Of a stretch of DNA of 40,621 nt, positions 11,304 to 17,799 are shown one piece after another (the stretch's first letter is position 1; every line of letters begins with the position of its first letter). The notes under the pieces are model-generated. The model saw only the letters and a program-made list of their open reading frames with translations, was not told the origin of the DNA and did no database searches. Source of the DNA: Planctomycetota bacterium (GTDB taxonomy: Bacteria; Planctomycetota; SZUA-567); the NCBI GenBank assembly GCA_031270685.1, contig JAISXA010000151.1:1-40621 (forward strand), in the 5' to 3' direction. The position numbers and the translations under genes are program-made.

Positions 11304-12209
11304 TCAGCGCTTTCCGCGAACCGGTCGCGCATCCAGCAGATCGCGAAGCGCGTGCAGGGCCGGATCGAGATCCACGGCCACCCAAAAGGCGTCCTGGTCG
11401 AGGTCGATCGCGTCCGCGGCGCTTCGCCGCGCCGCGTCGGCGTTACCGTCGGCCCAGGCCAACGCGGCGGAATAGGCCAGCCTTCTCGCTCCCCGGGCGC
11501 CGTCTCCCGGCGGAATCGGCGCCTCCCATGCGGAAAAGTCCTCCTTCGCCAACTCCGGCCGCCGCATCCGCAACGCCAGCGATATGGACTGGCAATGGTA
11601 ATCCTCATAGCCCGGATCCAGCGCCAGCGCCTTGCCGACGGCTTCGCGGGCTTCCCCGAAGCGTCCGGCGCCGGCTAGATCGTCGGCGTACTCCGCCCAC
11701 GCCGCGTCGTCCCAGGGGGTTAGCGCCAGCAGTTGCCGCAGGTCGGCCGCCGCTCCCGCCATATCCCCATCCAGCCTGCGCAGATCCGCCCGGTAGCGGA
11801 GGAGCCTGGCGCCGCGTTCCCGGGCGCGCCCGCGCAAGGCGAAAAGCATCGCCGCCGCCGACGGGACGGCGAGCATTACTCCGCCCCACGCCCAGACCGC
11901 GCTTTCGCCGGGGGGGGAAAACGCGCTTCCCCAGAGCAGCAGAACCCCCAGCGCCATGAACGCCGGAGGCAGCAGGCGCCACCCGCCCGGGGAGGGCCTG
12001 GCCAGTGCGGGGCCGCCGTCCGGGATGGGCGTCCTTGCCGCGAGGAGCTTATCGATTCCGGCGATCTCCTCCCCGCGATAGGCGGCGTCGTTTTCCGCCC
12101 GCGCCAGGTTGCGGAATTCCCGGTCGACGGCCAAATAAACGTACCTGACGAACAGCGCGGCGGCGGCGACGAGGAAAACCAGCAGCGCGACTATGCGATA
12201 GGCGTTCAT
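11304..12209 (-). CDS. TPR-containing membrane protein, unknown role
   Basis: Function not recognised. The 301-residue product has an N-terminal membrane helix (about 6-28, VALLVFLVAAAALFVRYVY), two more hydrophobic segments near 75-95 and 100-125, then a C-terminal set of TPR-like helices (MAGAAADLRQLLALTPWDDAAWAEYADDL..., FGEAREAVGKALALDPGY). The TPR part would face the cytoplasm or periplasm as a binding surface. It starts 2 bases after the kinase-like gene stop, so the pair probably work together at the membrane; the kinase-like protein also ends in a membrane helix. Confidence 0.7.
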   Translation of the reverse strand: MNAYRIVALLVFLVAAAALFVRYVYLAVDREFRNLARAENDAAYRGEEIAGIDKLLAARTPIPDGGPALARPSPGGWRLLPPAFMALGVLLLWGSAFSPPGESAVWAWGGVMLAVPSAAAMLFALRGRARERGARLLRYRADLRRLDGDMAGAAADLRQLLALTPWDDAAWAEYADDLAGAGRFGEAREAVGKALALDPGYEDYHCQSISLALRMRRPELAKEDFSAWEAPIPPGDGARGARRLAYSAALAWADGNADAARRSAADAIDLDQDAFWVAVDLDPALHALRDLLDARPVRGKR

Positions 12210-12211
12210 GT

Positions 12212-13507
12212 TCAATCGGCGATTCCAAGGAAACGGTAAAGAAGCAGGAGAACGGCAAGCGACAGAAACGCGATCCCGACCCAAAGCCATCCGCCGAACC
12301 CGGACCGGGCGCTCTTTTTCCGTCTGACCAGGGAAATGCCGCGCACCGACTCCGGGGAAGGCGCCGGAACGGCGGCGAAGGAACGCGCCGACCGGGCTTT
12401 CCCGGTGGCGGCGACCGGTCCGGCCTGGCGGACGAGGCCGCTCCATTCCCCGGCGCCGGCGAGGTGGAATTTCTCGAGGCGCTGGGAAAGCTCGTCCGGA
12501 TTCCGGGGGCGCCGCGCCGGGTCAAGCTCCAGCATGTCCCGAATCAGGTTCACGAATTTGGGCGAGAAGCGCGAAACCGCTTCCGGCGCGAACGGGGGAA
12601 CGGGACGGCTCTCCCGGAACCGGATCACCGCGTTCCCGTCCTCGACGTCGCCGGGATCGAAGGGCGGAACGCCGAAGGAAAGATGGTAGAACGACGCCCC
12701 GAGACTGTAGATGTCGGTGGCGGCGTTCACCAGCTCCGGCTGGGCAAGCTGCTCCGGGGCCGCGTATTCGGGGCCGCAGCGCACAAAACCGGGCCGGAGG
12801 CCGACCTGCGCCTCCTTCGGTCTCGCCACCCTGGGGACGCCGAGGTTCGCGAGCTTCACGTCTCCCTGCGCGTCGAGCAGCAAATTGCCGGGATTGAGAT
12901 CGCCGTGGAAAACGGCGGCCTCCCAGGCGTGGCGCAATCCCGATACCGTCTGCCGCAGATGGAGCAACGCCTGGTTCTCGCTCAACGGTCCGTGCCTGGC
13001 CAGTTGCGAACCGAGACTACCGCCCGAAAGGTATTCATGGGCGAAATAATAGAATCCGTTCGACTCGCCGACGTCGATGCCCTGGACGATGTGCGGATGG
13101 TGGAACCGCGACACCGCCCGCGCCTCGGCGATATAGGCGTTGACGAACACCGGATCGGTCGCCAGGCGGGGATGGAGGATTTTCAGCGCCACTTCCCGGT
13201 CCATGGCGACCTGAACCGCGCGGTACACCGTCGCGATCGTCCCGGAGCCGATGCGATCGACGATCTCGTACCCGGTTATCAACCGCCGGCGCCGCAATTC
13301 CTCCGCCCGCAGTTCCCCGAGCTGGCCGTTGTCGATGAAGCCCAGGCGGACCGCCGCCGCGCCGAGCGAATCGTCCGGGCCGCCGCCTTCCGCGCGGGCG
13401 CGGAGCATCTCCCGGCGGGCCTCCTCCACCTGGAGCGGATTCATCAGTCCCATGTCCACGGCGACATGGCCCAGCCGCTGGTCGATATGCGCCAGGCTCT
13501 CGTTCAT
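12212..13507 (-). CDS. Ser/Thr protein kinase-like protein with altered DFG motif
   Basis: The 431-residue product has three parts. Residues 1-75 are helical repeats (LGHVAVDMGLMNPLQVEEA; VRLGFIDNGQLGEL) like the GspE-N type. Residues 80-375 form a Hanks-type kinase domain with the glycine loop IGSGTIATVY, VALK (Lys109), a helix-C Glu128, HGDLNPGN (Asp203, Asn208) and APE (YAAPEQ). A single membrane helix lies near 405-425 with only a few residues after it. The metal-binding Asp of DFG is replaced: ANLG at 220-223, with Asn221 encoded by AAC (12847-12845). It may be a pseudokinase or a weak kinase. Its start overlaps the stop of the methyltransferase gene by 4 bases. Confidence 0.85.
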   Translation of the reverse strand: MNESLAHIDQRLGHVAVDMGLMNPLQVEEARREMLRARAEGGGPDDSLGAAAVRLGFIDNGQLGELRAEELRRRRLITGYEIVDRIGSGTIATVYRAVQVAMDREVALKILHPRLATDPVFVNAYIAEARAVSRFHHPHIVQGIDVGESNGFYYFAHEYLSGGSLGSQLARHGPLSENQALLHLRQTVSGLRHAWEAAVFHGDLNPGNLLLDAQGDVKLANLGVPRVARPKEAQVGLRPGFVRCGPEYAAPEQLAQPELVNAATDIYSLGASFYHLSFGVPPFDPGDVEDGNAVIRFRESRPVPPFAPEAVSRFSPKFVNLIRDMLELDPARRPRNPDELSQRLEKFHLAGAGEWSGLVRQAGPVAATGKARSARSFAAVPAPSPESVRGISLVRRKKSARSGFGGWLWVGIAFLSLAVLLLLYRFLGIAD

Positions 13508-14415
13508 GGCCGCATCCCCCCCGGCGGCCGCCGCAAGCCGTCGAGTTCCCGGCCCATGGCCCGGATGTGCGCCGGCGTCGTACCGCAACAGCCGCCGATG
13601 ACCGCGGCGCCGGCCGCCGCCAAACCCGCGACTCCGGCCGCGAGCGATTCGGGGCTTTCGCCGAACACGGTCCTGCCGGCGACCAGTTCGGGAACGCCGG
13701 CGTTCACGTGCGCGGCGAGCGGCTTCCCGGTCGCCTTACGGAAATCGCCGATTACCCGGGTCATCTGTTCCATGCCGTTGCCGCAATTCGCGCCCAGCAC
13801 GTCGGCGCCGGCGGCGGTCAATTCGCGCGCCGCCCGCCTCACGTCGACGCCCATCATGGTGTGGAACCCCTCCGGGCCGGGATCGAAAGTCATGGTGGCG
13901 ACGATGTCGACGCCGGGCGCGACCTCCCTGGCGCAACGAACGGCCAGGGCCGCCTCCTCGATCGCGGTCATGGTCTCGACGCAAACAACGTCCGCCCCGG
14001 CGGCGACGGCGGCTCCGATCTGCTCGCGGAACGCTCCGGCCAGATCCTCTTCCGTACGCTCGCCGTAAGGTTCGAGAAACTCCCCGCTCGGCCCCAGCGA
14101 GAACGCGACCAGGGCCCGTCCGGCGGCGGCCGACCGGGCCAGGCGAACGCCGGCGGCGTTGATCGCCGCGACCTTGCCGCCGAGTTCGTACCTGGCCAGC
14201 TTGTATCTCGAGCCGCCGAAGGTGTTGGTCATGACCATTTCCGACCCCGCTTCGACATAGGCGCGCGAAATCTCCCCGACCAGTTCGGGATGCTCCAGAT
14301 TCCACAGTTCCGGACACTCCCCCGGCTTCAATCCCTTTTCCTGAAGCATGGTCCCCATGGCGCCGTCCGACAGGACCAGGCGTTTTTCCAGAAGCAGATC
14401 CAGCAGTTTGCCCAT
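13504..14415 (-). CDS. Homocysteine S-methyltransferase domain protein
   Basis: The roughly 303-residue product is a lone homocysteine-binding (S-methyltransferase) barrel like the N-terminal module of MetH. It has LSDGAMGTMLQEKG at the start, the first zinc cysteine in GANCGNG and the paired cysteines in GGCCGTTPAHI near the C-terminus. No folate- or cobalamin-binding module follows, so the methyl donor is not set by sequence: S-methylmethionine, a corrinoid protein encoded elsewhere, or betaine. Start 14415 (MGKLLDLLL) is chosen because GGCGGGG ends 9 bases upstream; ATG 14424 is the alternative. Why it is coupled to a kinase-like gene is unclear. Confidence 0.85.
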   Translation of the reverse strand: MGKLLDLLLEKRLVLSDGAMGTMLQEKGLKPGECPELWNLEHPELVGEISRAYVEAGSEMVMTNTFGGSRYKLARYELGGKVAAINAAGVRLARSAAAGRALVAFSLGPSGEFLEPYGERTEEDLAGAFREQIGAAVAAGADVVCVETMTAIEEAALAVRCAREVAPGVDIVATMTFDPGPEGFHTMMGVDVRRAARELTAAGADVLGANCGNGMEQMTRVIGDFRKATGKPLAAHVNAGVPELVAGRTVFGESPESLAAGVAGLAAAGAAVIGGCCGTTPAHIRAMGRELDGLRRPPGGMRP

Positions 14416-14494
14416 CGCCGTCATCCCCGCCGGCCGGTCGCCGCCGCGTCGCGGAATGCGGCGCGAAAAGGCGCAGGCGTCTTCCAAACTGAAG

Positions 14495-14538
14495 TTTTGC
14501 ACCGTGGCGATTAAACCGCCAATCGCCACGGTGCAAAA
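14495..14538. repeat. Hairpin repeat (family II), perfect 18-bp stem
   Basis: Arms 14495-14512 and 14521-14538 are perfectly complementary around the loop AAACCGCC (14513-14520). The stem sequence differs from the family I copies but the loop is the same. It lies about 80 bases upstream of the homocysteine methyltransferase start, in its likely leader. No T-run follows in either direction that would make a standard terminator. Confidence 0.85.
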
Positions 14539-14674: not shown

Positions 14675-15196
14675 TCAGACGCCGGATCCGGCGCCGTCCG
14701 CGACCCGGGCCAGCCAGGCCGCAGCCAGCTTGCGATGGCCGGTGCCGGCGGCCCTGATCGTCAGCCGCCGCCCGTCCCCGCCGGCGTGCTCCAGCTCCAC
14801 CAGCAGTGCCTCGCCGCCCGCCTGCTCCAGCAACAGCCCGGGCCATTCCACCGCCAGGACCGCGCCCGGAGCGTACAGCAGCTCGGGCACGCCGACGGCG
14901 TCCAATTCGCCCGCCGCCCGCAACCGGTACAGGTCGGCGTGGTTGAACGTCAGCCGGCCCGGATATTCGGCGTGCAGGGTGAAGGTGGGGCTGGTCACCG
15001 CCACAGCGGCGTCGACGCCGAGCCCTTGCGCCAGACCCTGGGCGAAGCAGGTTTTCCCGGCGCCGAGGTCGCCGGCGAGCAGGATCGCCTCGCCGCCCGC
15101 GCACAACTCCCCGAGCCGGCGGGCAGCCTCCCGCGTGGCCGCGGCGTCGCCTGTTGTCAAGGAACCCACGTGGTCGAGACCGGCCCGGTTCACCAT
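14675..15196 (-). CDS. tsaE: tRNA threonylcarbamoyladenosine biosynthesis ATPase TsaE
   Basis: TsaE is the ATPase that supports TsaB-TsaD in making t6A37 of ANN-decoding tRNAs. The 173-residue product has the Walker A LLAGDLGAGKTCFAQGLA (about 39-56), SPTFTLHAEY, the HADLYRL block and VEWPGLL, all in family order. Its ATG at 15196 overlaps the thiL stop by 7 bases. It is the last gene of the operon, before a clear terminator. tsaB and tsaD are not in the window. Confidence 0.93.
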   Translation of the reverse strand: MVNRAGLDHVGSLTTGDAAATREAARRLGELCAGGEAILLAGDLGAGKTCFAQGLAQGLGVDAAVAVTSPTFTLHAEYPGRLTFNHADLYRLRAAGELDAVGVPELLYAPGAVLAVEWPGLLLEQAGGEALLVELEHAGGDGRRLTIRAAGTGHRKLAAAWLARVADGAGSGV

Positions 15197-16137
15197 GTAT
15201 GTTCGAATCCTTCCGCCGCCAGCGGCTCAAGTTCGCCCGACCGGCGGACCAGGACGCAGCCCGCGTCGCGGACGATCTCCCCGATCCGGGTCAAGGCGGC
15301 AAGTCCGGGACGCGGCCGCCGCGCGTATTCCTCGAAGGCGCCGGCGTCGACGGCCAGCAACAGTTCGAAGTCCTCGCCGTCGGACAACGCGTGCCGCAAC
15401 GCCGGCCGCCCGGACCGCTCCGCCGCTCTTTCCGCCGCCGCCGACACCGGAACCAGGGATTCGTGGACCACCGCCCCGACGCCGCTCTCCCGGCACAGGC
15501 GCGAGAGATCGAGGGCCAGGCCGTCGGAAATGTCCAGCGCCGCAGAAACGGCGCGGCCGTCGCCGAAGCGCACCCCGGAAAACTCGAGCAGATGGCGCAT
15601 TTCCCGAAAACGGGGGCGGGGCGATAGGTGCCCACCGAGCAGCGACCCGCCGAGAGTTCCGCTGACCACCAGCGCGTCTCCCGGACGCGCCCCGCTTCGC
15701 AAAACCGGACCGCCCGGCAATGGTTCGCCGACGGCGGTGACCGCGACGAAAACGCCGCCCGGGGACGAAACCGCGTCGCCGCCCACCGCCGCCGTCCCCT
15801 CCTCCCGCGCGGCCTGGGCGAAGGCGCTGGCGAACTCCCGGGTCCAGCCGGGGGGCAATCCCGGCCGCAACCCCAGCGCGGCGAGAACCCAGCGCGCGCG
15901 GCAGCCCGACGCGGCCAAATCCGACAACGCCGACAGGACCGCCTTCCGCGCCACGTCGCCGGGTGCCGCGTCCGGCGTGAAATGGACCTTTTCCACCAGC
16001 GCGTCCACGCTTACGGCCAGCCGCCGCCCGTCCGCGGCCAGGTGCGCGCAGTCGTCGGGTCCGCTGCCGACCAGCACCGACGGATCGGCGGTCCTGAACG
16101 TTTCGCGGAGCAGCGAAAGCAGCGCGTTCTCGTTCAT
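15190..16137 (-). CDS. thiL: Thiamine-monophosphate kinase
   Basis: ThiL phosphorylates thiamine monophosphate to the active cofactor thiamine diphosphate. The 315-residue product, of normal length, shows GPDDCAHL (the GDDAA-type metal site), the block LAVSVDALVEKVHF, AVLSALSDLAASG, VGGDAVSSPG, VSGTLGGSLLG and SDGEDFELLL. It starts inside the stop of the PlsC-like gene (ATGA) and overlaps tsaE. The thiL-tsaE pairing next to lipid acyltransferases looks like operon packing rather than one pathway. Confidence 0.94.
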   Translation of the reverse strand: MNENALLSLLRETFRTADPSVLVGSGPDDCAHLAADGRRLAVSVDALVEKVHFTPDAAPGDVARKAVLSALSDLAASGCRARWVLAALGLRPGLPPGWTREFASAFAQAAREEGTAAVGGDAVSSPGGVFVAVTAVGEPLPGGPVLRSGARPGDALVVSGTLGGSLLGGHLSPRPRFREMRHLLEFSGVRFGDGRAVSAALDISDGLALDLSRLCRESGVGAVVHESLVPVSAAAERAAERSGRPALRHALSDGEDFELLLAVDAGAFEEYARRPRPGLAALTRIGEIVRDAGCVLVRRSGELEPLAAEGFEHTW

Positions 16138-16838
16138 GACAGCGTCGCCCGCCGGCGGCCGGGACGGCGGAAAAAGCGCCGCGGATCGAACCCGCGCCCC
16201 GCCAGCAGGGCGATGGCGGTCATGATCCGGACACTCAGGTTTTCGATCATCCGCTTTCGTTCGTCCGCCGGGGAATCCCGGTACGCGAGCTCCTTGTCGA
16301 AAAACCGCACCGGCGGCCCGAAGCGAATGCGCGCCCGGCGGAAGGGACGGGGAACGCGCGCACCGAGCGGCAACGCGTTCCCGGAGCCGACGACGGCGCA
16401 GGGAACCGCCGGCTTGCCGCTCTCGAGCGCCAGCAGGGCGGCCCCCCGGCGCGGGCGATTCAGGCCGGGCCGGGGGTTGATGTGGCCTTCGGGAAAGATG
16501 CCGACCGCTTCTCCGGCGGCGAGCCACCCCAAGGCGGTTTCGAGCATGGCGTACTGGCTGCCGGCGTCGCCCCGGACAAAGGGGACGCAACCGGAGGAGC
16601 GCAGGAACCACCCGGTCAGCCAATTGGAAAACGGCTCCGCGTAGGCGATCATGTGCAGCGGCCGCAGCTTCTCCCTGGCGTAGGCCAGCGCCAGCAGCGG
16701 CCCGTCGAGGAAGCTCGAATGGTTGGCGGCGACGACGCAGCCGCCCGCCGGGACGTTGTCCACGCCCTCGCAGCCGCCGTAAAACGGCAGCGCGGCCGTG
16801 GAAACGATCCCGGCGGCGAGGGAGAAGCTTTTCCACAT
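16134..16838 (-). CDS. PlsC-like 1-acylglycerol-3-phosphate acyltransferase family protein
   Basis: The 234-residue product has the acyltransferase motifs in order: block I NHSSFLDG (NHxxxxD catalytic pair, about residues 39-45), block II around FVRGDAG, block III IFPEGHINP and block IV VPCAVVG. A hydrophobic N-terminus (FSLAAGIVSTAALPF) suggests membrane association. The likely reaction is acylation of lysophosphatidate in phospholipid synthesis, though related enzymes use other lipids. It starts one base after the LpxL-like stop and overlaps thiL by 4 bases. Confidence 0.87.
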   Translation of the reverse strand: MWKSFSLAAGIVSTAALPFYGGCEGVDNVPAGGCVVAANHSSFLDGPLLALAYAREKLRPLHMIAYAEPFSNWLTGWFLRSSGCVPFVRGDAGSQYAMLETALGWLAAGEAVGIFPEGHINPRPGLNRPRRGAALLALESGKPAVPCAVVGSGNALPLGARVPRPFRRARIRFGPPVRFFDKELAYRDSPADERKRMIENLSVRIMTAIALLAGRGFDPRRFFRRPGRRRATLS

Positions 16839-16839
16839 G

Positions 16840-17745
16840 CTAGCGCTCCGATCGGCCGTGACGCCAGCGCTGGTGGGTCCAGATCCATTGCTCCGGGAAC
16901 TCCCGGATCAAGTCGCCTAGATCGTCGTTGACCGCCTGCGTCAGCCGCCGCACCTCCGCTTCCGCGTCGGCGGCCGGGTCGGGCCGCCGCACCCGCTTCA
17001 GCCTGACCACGAAACGCATCGGCTCCCGGTCGCGGAACACGCCGCCCACCACCAGTGGTGCGCCCGCCTTGACCGCGACTTCGACCGGCAGGGACATGGT
17101 GGTGCAGGAGCGGCCGAGGAAAAAACCGGGCAATCCCCGCGGACCGCCGTCCTGGTCCACCAGCGCGCCCGCGCCACCGCCCCGGGAAAGGGTCTTGAAC
17201 AGGCGCCGGATCGCGCCGAACTTGCTCCACACCTCGAACCCGGCGCGTTCCCGGATGCGCCGCAGGAAGGCGTCCAGCCGCGGGTTGTTCAGCGGCCGCG
17301 CGACCACCCCTTCGGCCAGCCGGTACCTGCCGGCGGTGAAGCCGCACCATTCCCAGTTGCCCATATGGCCGGTCAGGAGCATTATTCCCCTACCCTCGCT
17401 TTTCGCGGACCGGACGGCGTCGAGGCCGTCCCCGAACCTGATCCTGGTCAGCGCCGCTTCGTCCGGCATCCGCGCCAGGCGGAGAATTTCCATGGCGGTG
17501 TAGGCGTAATGCCGGTAATTTTCCTTCGCCAGCCGTTTCGCGCCGGCGGCGTCGAGGCCGAGGCGATCCTTCGCCGCCGCCTCGACCCGCAACGCGTGCC
17601 GGGAGTCGATCACCCGGACCAGGTCCGCCAGGACGCGGGCCAGCCGCTTCGCGAACCACAGCGGCGCGCAGCCAAGCAGGCCGTAGGCGAGCATCAGCCC
17701 CCAATACTGCATGGCGGCGGCAAACGTTCCGGATCGCCTTCCCAT
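16840..17745 (-). CDS. LpxL/HtrB-family lipid A acyltransferase-like protein
   Basis: The 301-residue product has an N-terminal membrane segment (MQYWGLMLAYGLLGCAPLWF) and the family's catalytic TGHMGNWEW (HxxxxE, residues about 123-131), then VVARPLNNPRLDAFLRRIR, the GALVDQDGG block and a C-terminal FPEQWIWTHQRW. LpxL proteins add a secondary acyl chain to lipid A at the inner membrane, which supports a Gram-negative envelope. Start 17745 follows GGAGG closely (17754-17750); ATG 17712 is an alternative. It is the first gene of the operon ending at tsaE. Confidence 0.9.
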   Translation of the reverse strand: MGRRSGTFAAAMQYWGLMLAYGLLGCAPLWFAKRLARVLADLVRVIDSRHALRVEAAAKDRLGLDAAGAKRLAKENYRHYAYTAMEILRLARMPDEAALTRIRFGDGLDAVRSAKSEGRGIMLLTGHMGNWEWCGFTAGRYRLAEGVVARPLNNPRLDAFLRRIRERAGFEVWSKFGAIRRLFKTLSRGGGAGALVDQDGGPRGLPGFFLGRSCTTMSLPVEVAVKAGAPLVVGGVFRDREPMRFVVRLKRVRRPDPAADAEAEVRRLTQAVNDDLGDLIREFPEQWIWTHQRWRHGRSER

Positions 17746-17799
17746 TCCCCCTCCGCGCAAAACCGCGATTCCGCCGGCCGCCGGCGAGCACTCCATCCA

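Follow-up and report, generated by a model that had tools for sequence, protein, structure and literature searches.

Can a membrane-anchored protein kinase whose metal-binding DFG aspartate has turned into asparagine still transfer phosphate, or has it become a scaffold for the membrane protein encoded beside it? This question is raised by a gene in the 40,621-nt window, i.e., the whole stretch of DNA that was analysed, which comes from a Planctomycetota draft genome (G000; 283 contigs, 88.65% complete). An earlier note on the sequence had considered either a pseudokinase scaffold or a kinase with unusual metal use, coupled to the adjoining TPR membrane protein. Bacterial pseudokinases are many and few have a known partner; here, the adjoining TPR protein is a named candidate. 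In the sections consulted of PMC12599244 (this source, PMC4718504 and PMC11032199 are cited throughout for the sections consulted), a bacterial pseudokinase is defined as a kinase-fold protein without one or more of the beta3 Lys, the HRD Asp and the DFG Asp.

Results

The gene lies on the minus strand at positions 12212..13507, the coordinates that the earlier note had correctly given, with an ATG at 13507 and a TGA stop at 12214-12212, and encodes a product of 431 aa. The PF00069 profile matches residues 80-335 with 143.8 bits (cut-off 31.7), which assigns the protein to the Hanks-type Ser/Thr kinase fold, and no Pfam domain other than kinase-fold families was found above cut-off. The AlphaFold2 model of the 431-aa protein, generated with 21 sequences as input and with a mean pLDDT of 78.3, matched kinases in a search of known folds (best E 1.6e-19), PknA/PknB being among the best matches, and a sequence search of the PDB gave StkP, an S. 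aureus kinase and PknA as the best matches. The pLDDT falls below 50 in the activation loop (residues 225-241) and in a linker (residues 353-403). The plus strand opposite the gene is open along its whole length (639-aa frame), as a shadow frame of high-GC DNA.

The protein is composed of N-terminal helical repeats (residues 3-74; 13286..13501), the kinase domain (residues 76-345; 12473..13282; Pfam, AlphaFold2 model and fold matches), the low-confidence linker at residues 353-403 with the sequence ISLVRR (residues 391-396; 12320..12337), and a C-terminal membrane helix (residues 405-426; 12230..12295), all on the minus strand. The helix, already proposed in the earlier note, is present in the AlphaFold2 model and coincides with a hydrophobic stretch. 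The repeats had been described as GspE-N-like; the model does show four helices (3-18, 24-39, 48-55 and 60-74) resembling GspE-N/MshEN, but NCBIfam NF053729, an MshE-related c-di-GMP motif, matches residues 10-30 with 23.1 bits, under its cut-off of 38, so that an MshEN domain cannot be assigned by this profile. Sensing of c-di-GMP by the repeats was rejected on account of this sub-cut-off match and of the absence of the region in the G011 orthologue. Neither PASTA nor any other extracytoplasmic domain was found in the protein with the Pfam and NCBIfam profiles, and the PASTA kinase profile NF033483 reached 173.2 bits, against 450, on residues 78-351 only.

In the kinase domain, the glycine-loop residue Gly87, the beta3 Lys (Lys109), the alphaC Glu (Glu128), the HRD Asp (Asp203) and the catalytic-loop Asn (Asn208) are present, and DFG reads NLG. 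The Asn221 announced in the earlier note, residue number included, is encoded by AAC (12845..12847, read 12847-12845 on the minus strand). The further statement that all other key residues are present did not hold: the Lys position of HRDxK is Asn205 (12893..12895), the P+1-loop Thr position is Gly245 (12773..12775), and HRD itself reads HGD, with Gly202 (12902..12904) at the Arg position. The Lys and Thr positions correspond to K168 and T201 of PKA. Asn171 and Asp184 are the metal ligands of canonical kinases (PMC4718504), and the loss of the DFG Asp is in itself enough to place the protein among the pseudokinases as defined above.

In order to see whether Asn is fixed, as the earlier note had proposed to check, orthologues were collected from 99 related genomes. 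Besides the window gene, six clear orthologues were found (G001, G003, G005, G011, G013 and G015; 51-77% identical), all seven belonging to the window's own Planctomycetota family, where the pseudokinase has a patchy presence (detected in 7 of 16 genomes). HGD[LIM]NPGN and ANLG were read in all seven, with Asn221, Asn205, Gly245 and Gly202 each fixed; Glu128, Asp203 and Asn208 are likewise kept in 7/7, and Lys109 in six, the G005 protein having Arg. Among the other kinase domains compared, Asn221 occurs in 0/140, Asn205 in 1/140, Gly202 in 2/140 and Gly245 in 3/139; over the 147 unique domains, position 221 is Asp in 138, Asn in 7, Met in 1 and Gly in 1. Because the seven orthologues share all four states and no other domain has Asn221, this residue is not a chance substitution. 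The HGDxNPGN pattern was found in 8 of 392 genomes of the phylum, namely the seven orthologue genomes and G193. The kinase of G193 (L143) is only distantly related; it reads HGDVNPGN and has Asn at P+1 but keeps DLG, i.e., loss of Lys without loss of Asp.

In a tree of 56 kinase domains, built with the catalytic columns left out, the seven Asn-forms are monophyletic (support 100/100) on a long stem of 0.85 changes per column. Their sister group, joined to them with a support of 98/99, comprises the G007, G002 and G004 kinases; these belong to the same family, are 36-47% identical and have HCDxKPxN and TDLG intact. When the G007 kinase was searched against the 16 family genomes, the two sister forms ranked first, followed by four full-length Asn-forms. 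The earlier note had counted orthologues with Asp against its proposal, and this applies by half: the close orthologues all have Asn, and the sister kinases keep both Asp and Lys. Asn is therefore fixed within a derived clade, not in the whole orthologous group. Eighteen positions are invariant in this clade and rare (≤6%) elsewhere, among them the four catalytic ones, Pro225, Ser277 and Phe278; three of the 18 (125, 195 and 257) are common to the sister clade. The sister kinases resemble the Asn-forms in having a C-terminal hydrophobic helix, seen by eye in both complete C-termini (G007 and G002; the G004 contig stops inside the gene), but those of G007 and G002 differ in that no adjoining TPR gene of the partner family was seen. 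The window's own genome carries, on contig C277, a second degenerate kinase (L011) with HGDVRPKR for HRDxKPxN and AGIG for DFG.

The selection acting on the gene was estimated by the Nei-Gojobori method, with our own script, on two close pairs. Purifying selection acts on the kinase domain, whose dN/dS is about 0.1 (0.11 for G000-G001 over 237 codons and 0.087 for G003-G013 over 273 codons), and therefore the gene is not decaying; the region of linker and tail is looser, with 0.60 in the first pair and 0.35 in the second. Within the otherwise variable linker, [FIV]SLxRR or a near form precedes the membrane helix in all seven orthologues, as read by eye in the alignment (FSLALRR, one residue longer, in G011; FSLRRR in the C-terminal piece of G015), and this motif may be a docking site.

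The TPR gene (11304..12209, minus strand, 301 aa) begins 2 nt past the stop codon of the pseudokinase gene, and its product matches TPR_19 with 25.5 bits at a cut-off of 25. By eye it has three hydrophobic helices and C-terminal TPR repeats; the AlphaFold2 model (4 sequences, pLDDT 84.3) shows helices at 3-25, 80-96 and 103-146 followed by TPR-like helices, and its fold search returned TPR proteins among the best matches, which were weak. The loop charges, judged by eye, suggest that the TPR part faces the cytoplasm, as the kinase domain would. In six of the seven orthologue genomes the TPR gene is directly downstream on the same strand, spaced by -4 to +6 nt (a gap of 2 nt in G000, an overlap of 4 nt in G001, 3 nt in G003, G013 and G011, and a gap of 6 nt in G015, for which a second contig was read); in G005 it lies 2.6 kb from the kinase gene, on the opposite strand. 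The proposed coupling to the TPR protein thus finds support of a genetic kind, in this gene order.

Ten of the 16 genomes of the family gave a strong TPR match (E below 1e-80); in G002, G004, G007 and G008 the match was weaker (E 7e-20 or better), and in G006 and G010 it was marginal. A second, weaker homologue is also present in G003, G009, G012, G013, G014 and G015. All seven pseudokinase genomes have the TPR gene, and the pseudokinase occurs in 7/10 genomes with a strong match vs 0/6 of the others, counts that ignore relatedness. No pseudokinase was detected in the remaining three strong-TPR genomes (G009, G012 and G014), which are 83-84% complete and may thus encode one elsewhere. In G014 (L166) the genes run ThiL-TsaE-TPR, TsaE and TPR lying too close together for a kinase gene to fit between them; G015 has ThiL-TsaE-kinase-TPR and G011 has TsaE-kinase-TPR, relative to which the G014 locus looks like a natural deletion state. 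The TPR gene of G012 has another upstream gene and that of G009 is at a contig start. The dependency is one-sided: the kinase implies the TPR gene, not the reverse. In these loci, TsaE is a putative assignment from the sequence, and ThiL is named after the gene in the window, which matches AIRS.

Upstream in the window, a homocysteine S-methyltransferase gene (13504..14529, minus strand; PF02574) overlaps the kinase start by 4 nt. It is also upstream in G001, and other genes take its place in G003, G013, G011 and G015; it is not a conserved part of the kinase-TPR module. Further upstream, at positions 15190-17796 of the minus strand, are genes resembling ThiL (AIRS) and a lipid A acyltransferase. 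Because ThiL is found upstream in G000, G015 and G014, the locus is partly syntenic, which weakens the idea that the kinase and TPR genes move about together as one unit.

Furthermore, 392 Planctomycetota genomes were scanned for a catalytic loop followed at normal distance by N[LF]G, a pattern that forces the HRD Asp and Asn171, present by construction, and leaves the Lys and Thr positions free. It was found at 32 places in 26 genomes (0 in the backward control), corresponding to the seven orthologues and 25 others in 21 genomes (L203-L231 and two more). A Lys codon at HRD+2 is absent from all 32 (30 read by script and 2 from the DNA). The 29 open frames from L203-L231 all match the profile of the window domain, the weakest with an E of 3e-8. 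A wider set was then considered, in which near-copies were collapsed and relatives added, its Asp-forms being biased towards relatives of the queries. There, the 31 DFG-Asn domains have no Lys and, at P+1, Thr in 3 and Ser in 2, vs 165 with Lys, 162 with Thr and 7 with Ser among 176 DFG-Asp domains; the difference in Lys gives a Fisher p of 6e-28, without correction for relatedness, and the 11/176 Asp-forms that also have no Lys speak against a strict two-way rule. In a tree of 213 domains, 13 changes of the DFG-Asn state are needed, six of them forced by supported branches. A phylogeny-corrected test of non-Asp against Lys loss was not significant with the few pairs available (5 supported pairs, median p 0.25), of which on average 2.9 went in the same direction, 0 in the opposite one and 2.1 showed no difference. 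Because of the 25 further places and the absence of the catalytic-loop Lys from all 32, the signature of DFG-Asn with Lys loss has probably arisen more than once.

Two other DFG-Asn proteins, of 1240 and 1545 aa as whole open frames, have the kinase as their sole Pfam domain. One further DFG-Asn group reads HGD[VI]RPSN...[AST]NLG, with APFYIAPE replacing GTPxY. Its relatives L267-L272 have Gln (L269 and L271) or Gly (L268 and L272) at the DFG Asp position; L270 has Asn there and Gln for Asn171, and L267 keeps the Asp and has lost the catalytic-loop Lys. They are possibly intermediate states.

Discussion

Taken as a whole, the evidence favours, in our judgement with a fair margin of doubt, a tail-anchored pseudokinase that would bind nucleotide weakly or without metal and serve as a membrane scaffold or sensor controlling its TPR partner. 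Three residues were lost on the one branch leading to the clade: the metal-binding Asp, the Lys of the catalytic loop, which contacts the gamma-phosphate, and the P+1 Thr. The kinase fold was kept, and so was the greater part of the nucleotide pocket, namely the glycine loop, the beta3 Lys/Arg, the alphaC Glu, the HRD Asp and Asn208. Since three losses fall on one branch and the fold and pocket are under selection, we infer that phosphotransfer was given up and a conformational role retained. The protein would be held at the cytoplasmic face of the membrane and act by its conformation, docking on the membrane protein that is translated directly after it and controlling the cytoplasmic TPR domain of that protein. 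The role of scaffold or sensor at the membrane is proposed by analogy, because of the kept fold and the STRADalpha and EssB precedents. The pseudokinase idea is stronger than when first put forward, given that Asn is fixed in 7/7 and that the catalytic-loop Lys and the P+1 Thr are gone as well. Against it, the HRD Asp and Asn208 have stayed in place under constraint, and this could be taken by some as a sign of residual catalysis. Against the coupling, the opposite strands in G005 mean that translational coupling is not universal, and the G012 and G014 TPR genes, with no kinase detected, mean that the TPR protein does not need the kinase.

The other half of the original proposal, an active kinase that uses metal in an unusual way, is unlikely, and less likely than before given the extra losses. 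Asn221 and Asn208 could together bind one metal weakly, or the enzyme could work free of metal like CASK, the TPR protein being its substrate. The fixation of the HRD Asp, Asn208 and Glu128 in 7/7 and the presence of the glycine loop agree with this, and HGDxNPGN resembles the Lys-free HGDxHPxN loop of APH-type phosphotransferases. This loop had also raised an APH-like small-molecule kinase; weak APH and ABC1 Pfam matches exist, but the best matches stay with protein kinases and the idea was rejected. A metal-free kinase has its precedent in CASK, which phosphorylates without cations (PMC4718504). However, two more residues with a part in phosphotransfer and substrate, the Lys of the catalytic loop and the Thr at P+1, are lost too, the beta3 Lys is Arg in G005, and not one DFG-Asn place in the 392 genomes keeps the catalytic-loop Lys.

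Slightly less probable still is a kinase fold with a purely structural role, i.e., an adaptor to which no nucleotide binds. It would suit the loss of a metal ligand and of a gamma-phosphate contact, as well as the Arg for Lys109 in G005, but pocket residues that folding does not need stay fixed at a dN/dS of about 0.1. A decaying gene or a sequencing error, which the draft source and the patchy presence in 7/16 family genomes might have suggested, is refuted to near certainty by the same changes in seven genomes, the clade support, the purifying selection and the absence of internal stops in the pieces read.

The locus is of wider value in that the small clade offers a natural before/after pair, the Asp/Lys/Thr sister vs the Asn/Asn/Gly form. 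The phylum scan suggests that the DFG Asp and the catalytic-loop Lys were repeatedly lost together, and such joint loss may serve as an easy sequence criterion for recognising pseudokinases in Planctomycetota, whose kinomes are very large.

Comparison With Known Systems

The window protein has the kinase fold and domain in common with the PknA/PknB-type kinases (StkP, PknA and PknB), from which it differs in having no PASTA, in the changed DFG Asp, catalytic-loop Lys and P+1 Thr, and in its tail anchor. Altered DFG motifs are found in eukaryotic kinases as well, CASK having GFG at this position. STRADalpha has an altered DFG, binds nucleotide independently of cations and activates a partner (PMC4718504); it and CASK share with our protein the altered DFG Asp and the cation-independent nucleotide use that we propose, and differ in being eukaryotic, in their partners and, for STRADalpha, in a GLR motif (PMC4718504). 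EssB/YukC is likewise a membrane pseudokinase whose cytoplasmic pseudokinase domain is a scaffold (PMC12599244), but its three motifs are all degraded and it is a T7SSb member.

The sections of PMC12599244 consulted have headings for seven bacterial pseudokinase families of unknown function (ActPs1-3, GLW, CP1, DYD and DLHK), which are similar to our protein in having STK folds, lost catalytic motifs and, for several, membrane association. No match to the HGDxNPGN...NLG signature was seen among these families in the sections consulted, and the string 'Planctomyc' is absent from that paper. DYD is characterized by a beta3 Arg and no alphaC Glu, and our protein has Lys109 and Glu128; CP1 and DLHK have no transmembrane region (CP1 being linked to COG3899), and our protein has the hydrophobic helix 405-426 and, above the Pfam cut-off, matches to kinase-fold families alone (family definitions from PMC12599244).

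Among Planctomycetota, 610 putative Ser/Thr kinases have been counted in Ca. Uabimicrobium amorphum, 525 of them with K-D-D sites, domains being classed as functional if these were held (PMC11032199). Kinases with an incomplete catalytic set are thus already known there as a number, with no described family seen in the part of this source consulted; words starting with 'pseudo' or 'DFG' are absent from it, and none of the titles listed in the open-access literature searched describes a Planctomycetota family with DFG-Asn. More tentatively, and with the odds rather against it, DFG-Asn with Lys loss might be a recurrent metal-free nucleotide-sensing module of the phylum that arose from active kinases on several separate occasions, and of which the window clade would be the obligate companion of a stand-alone membrane TPR protein in a two-gene, cytoplasm-facing sensor. 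The STKs fused to TPR or WD40 described in the same phylum likewise combine kinase, TPR and membrane, but carry the TPR on the same polypeptide, with a predicted periplasmic location (PMC11032199), whereas in the window it belongs to a separate protein and was judged cytoplasmic by eye; if the proposal is right, the usual fused kinase-TPR receptor would here be split into two genes.
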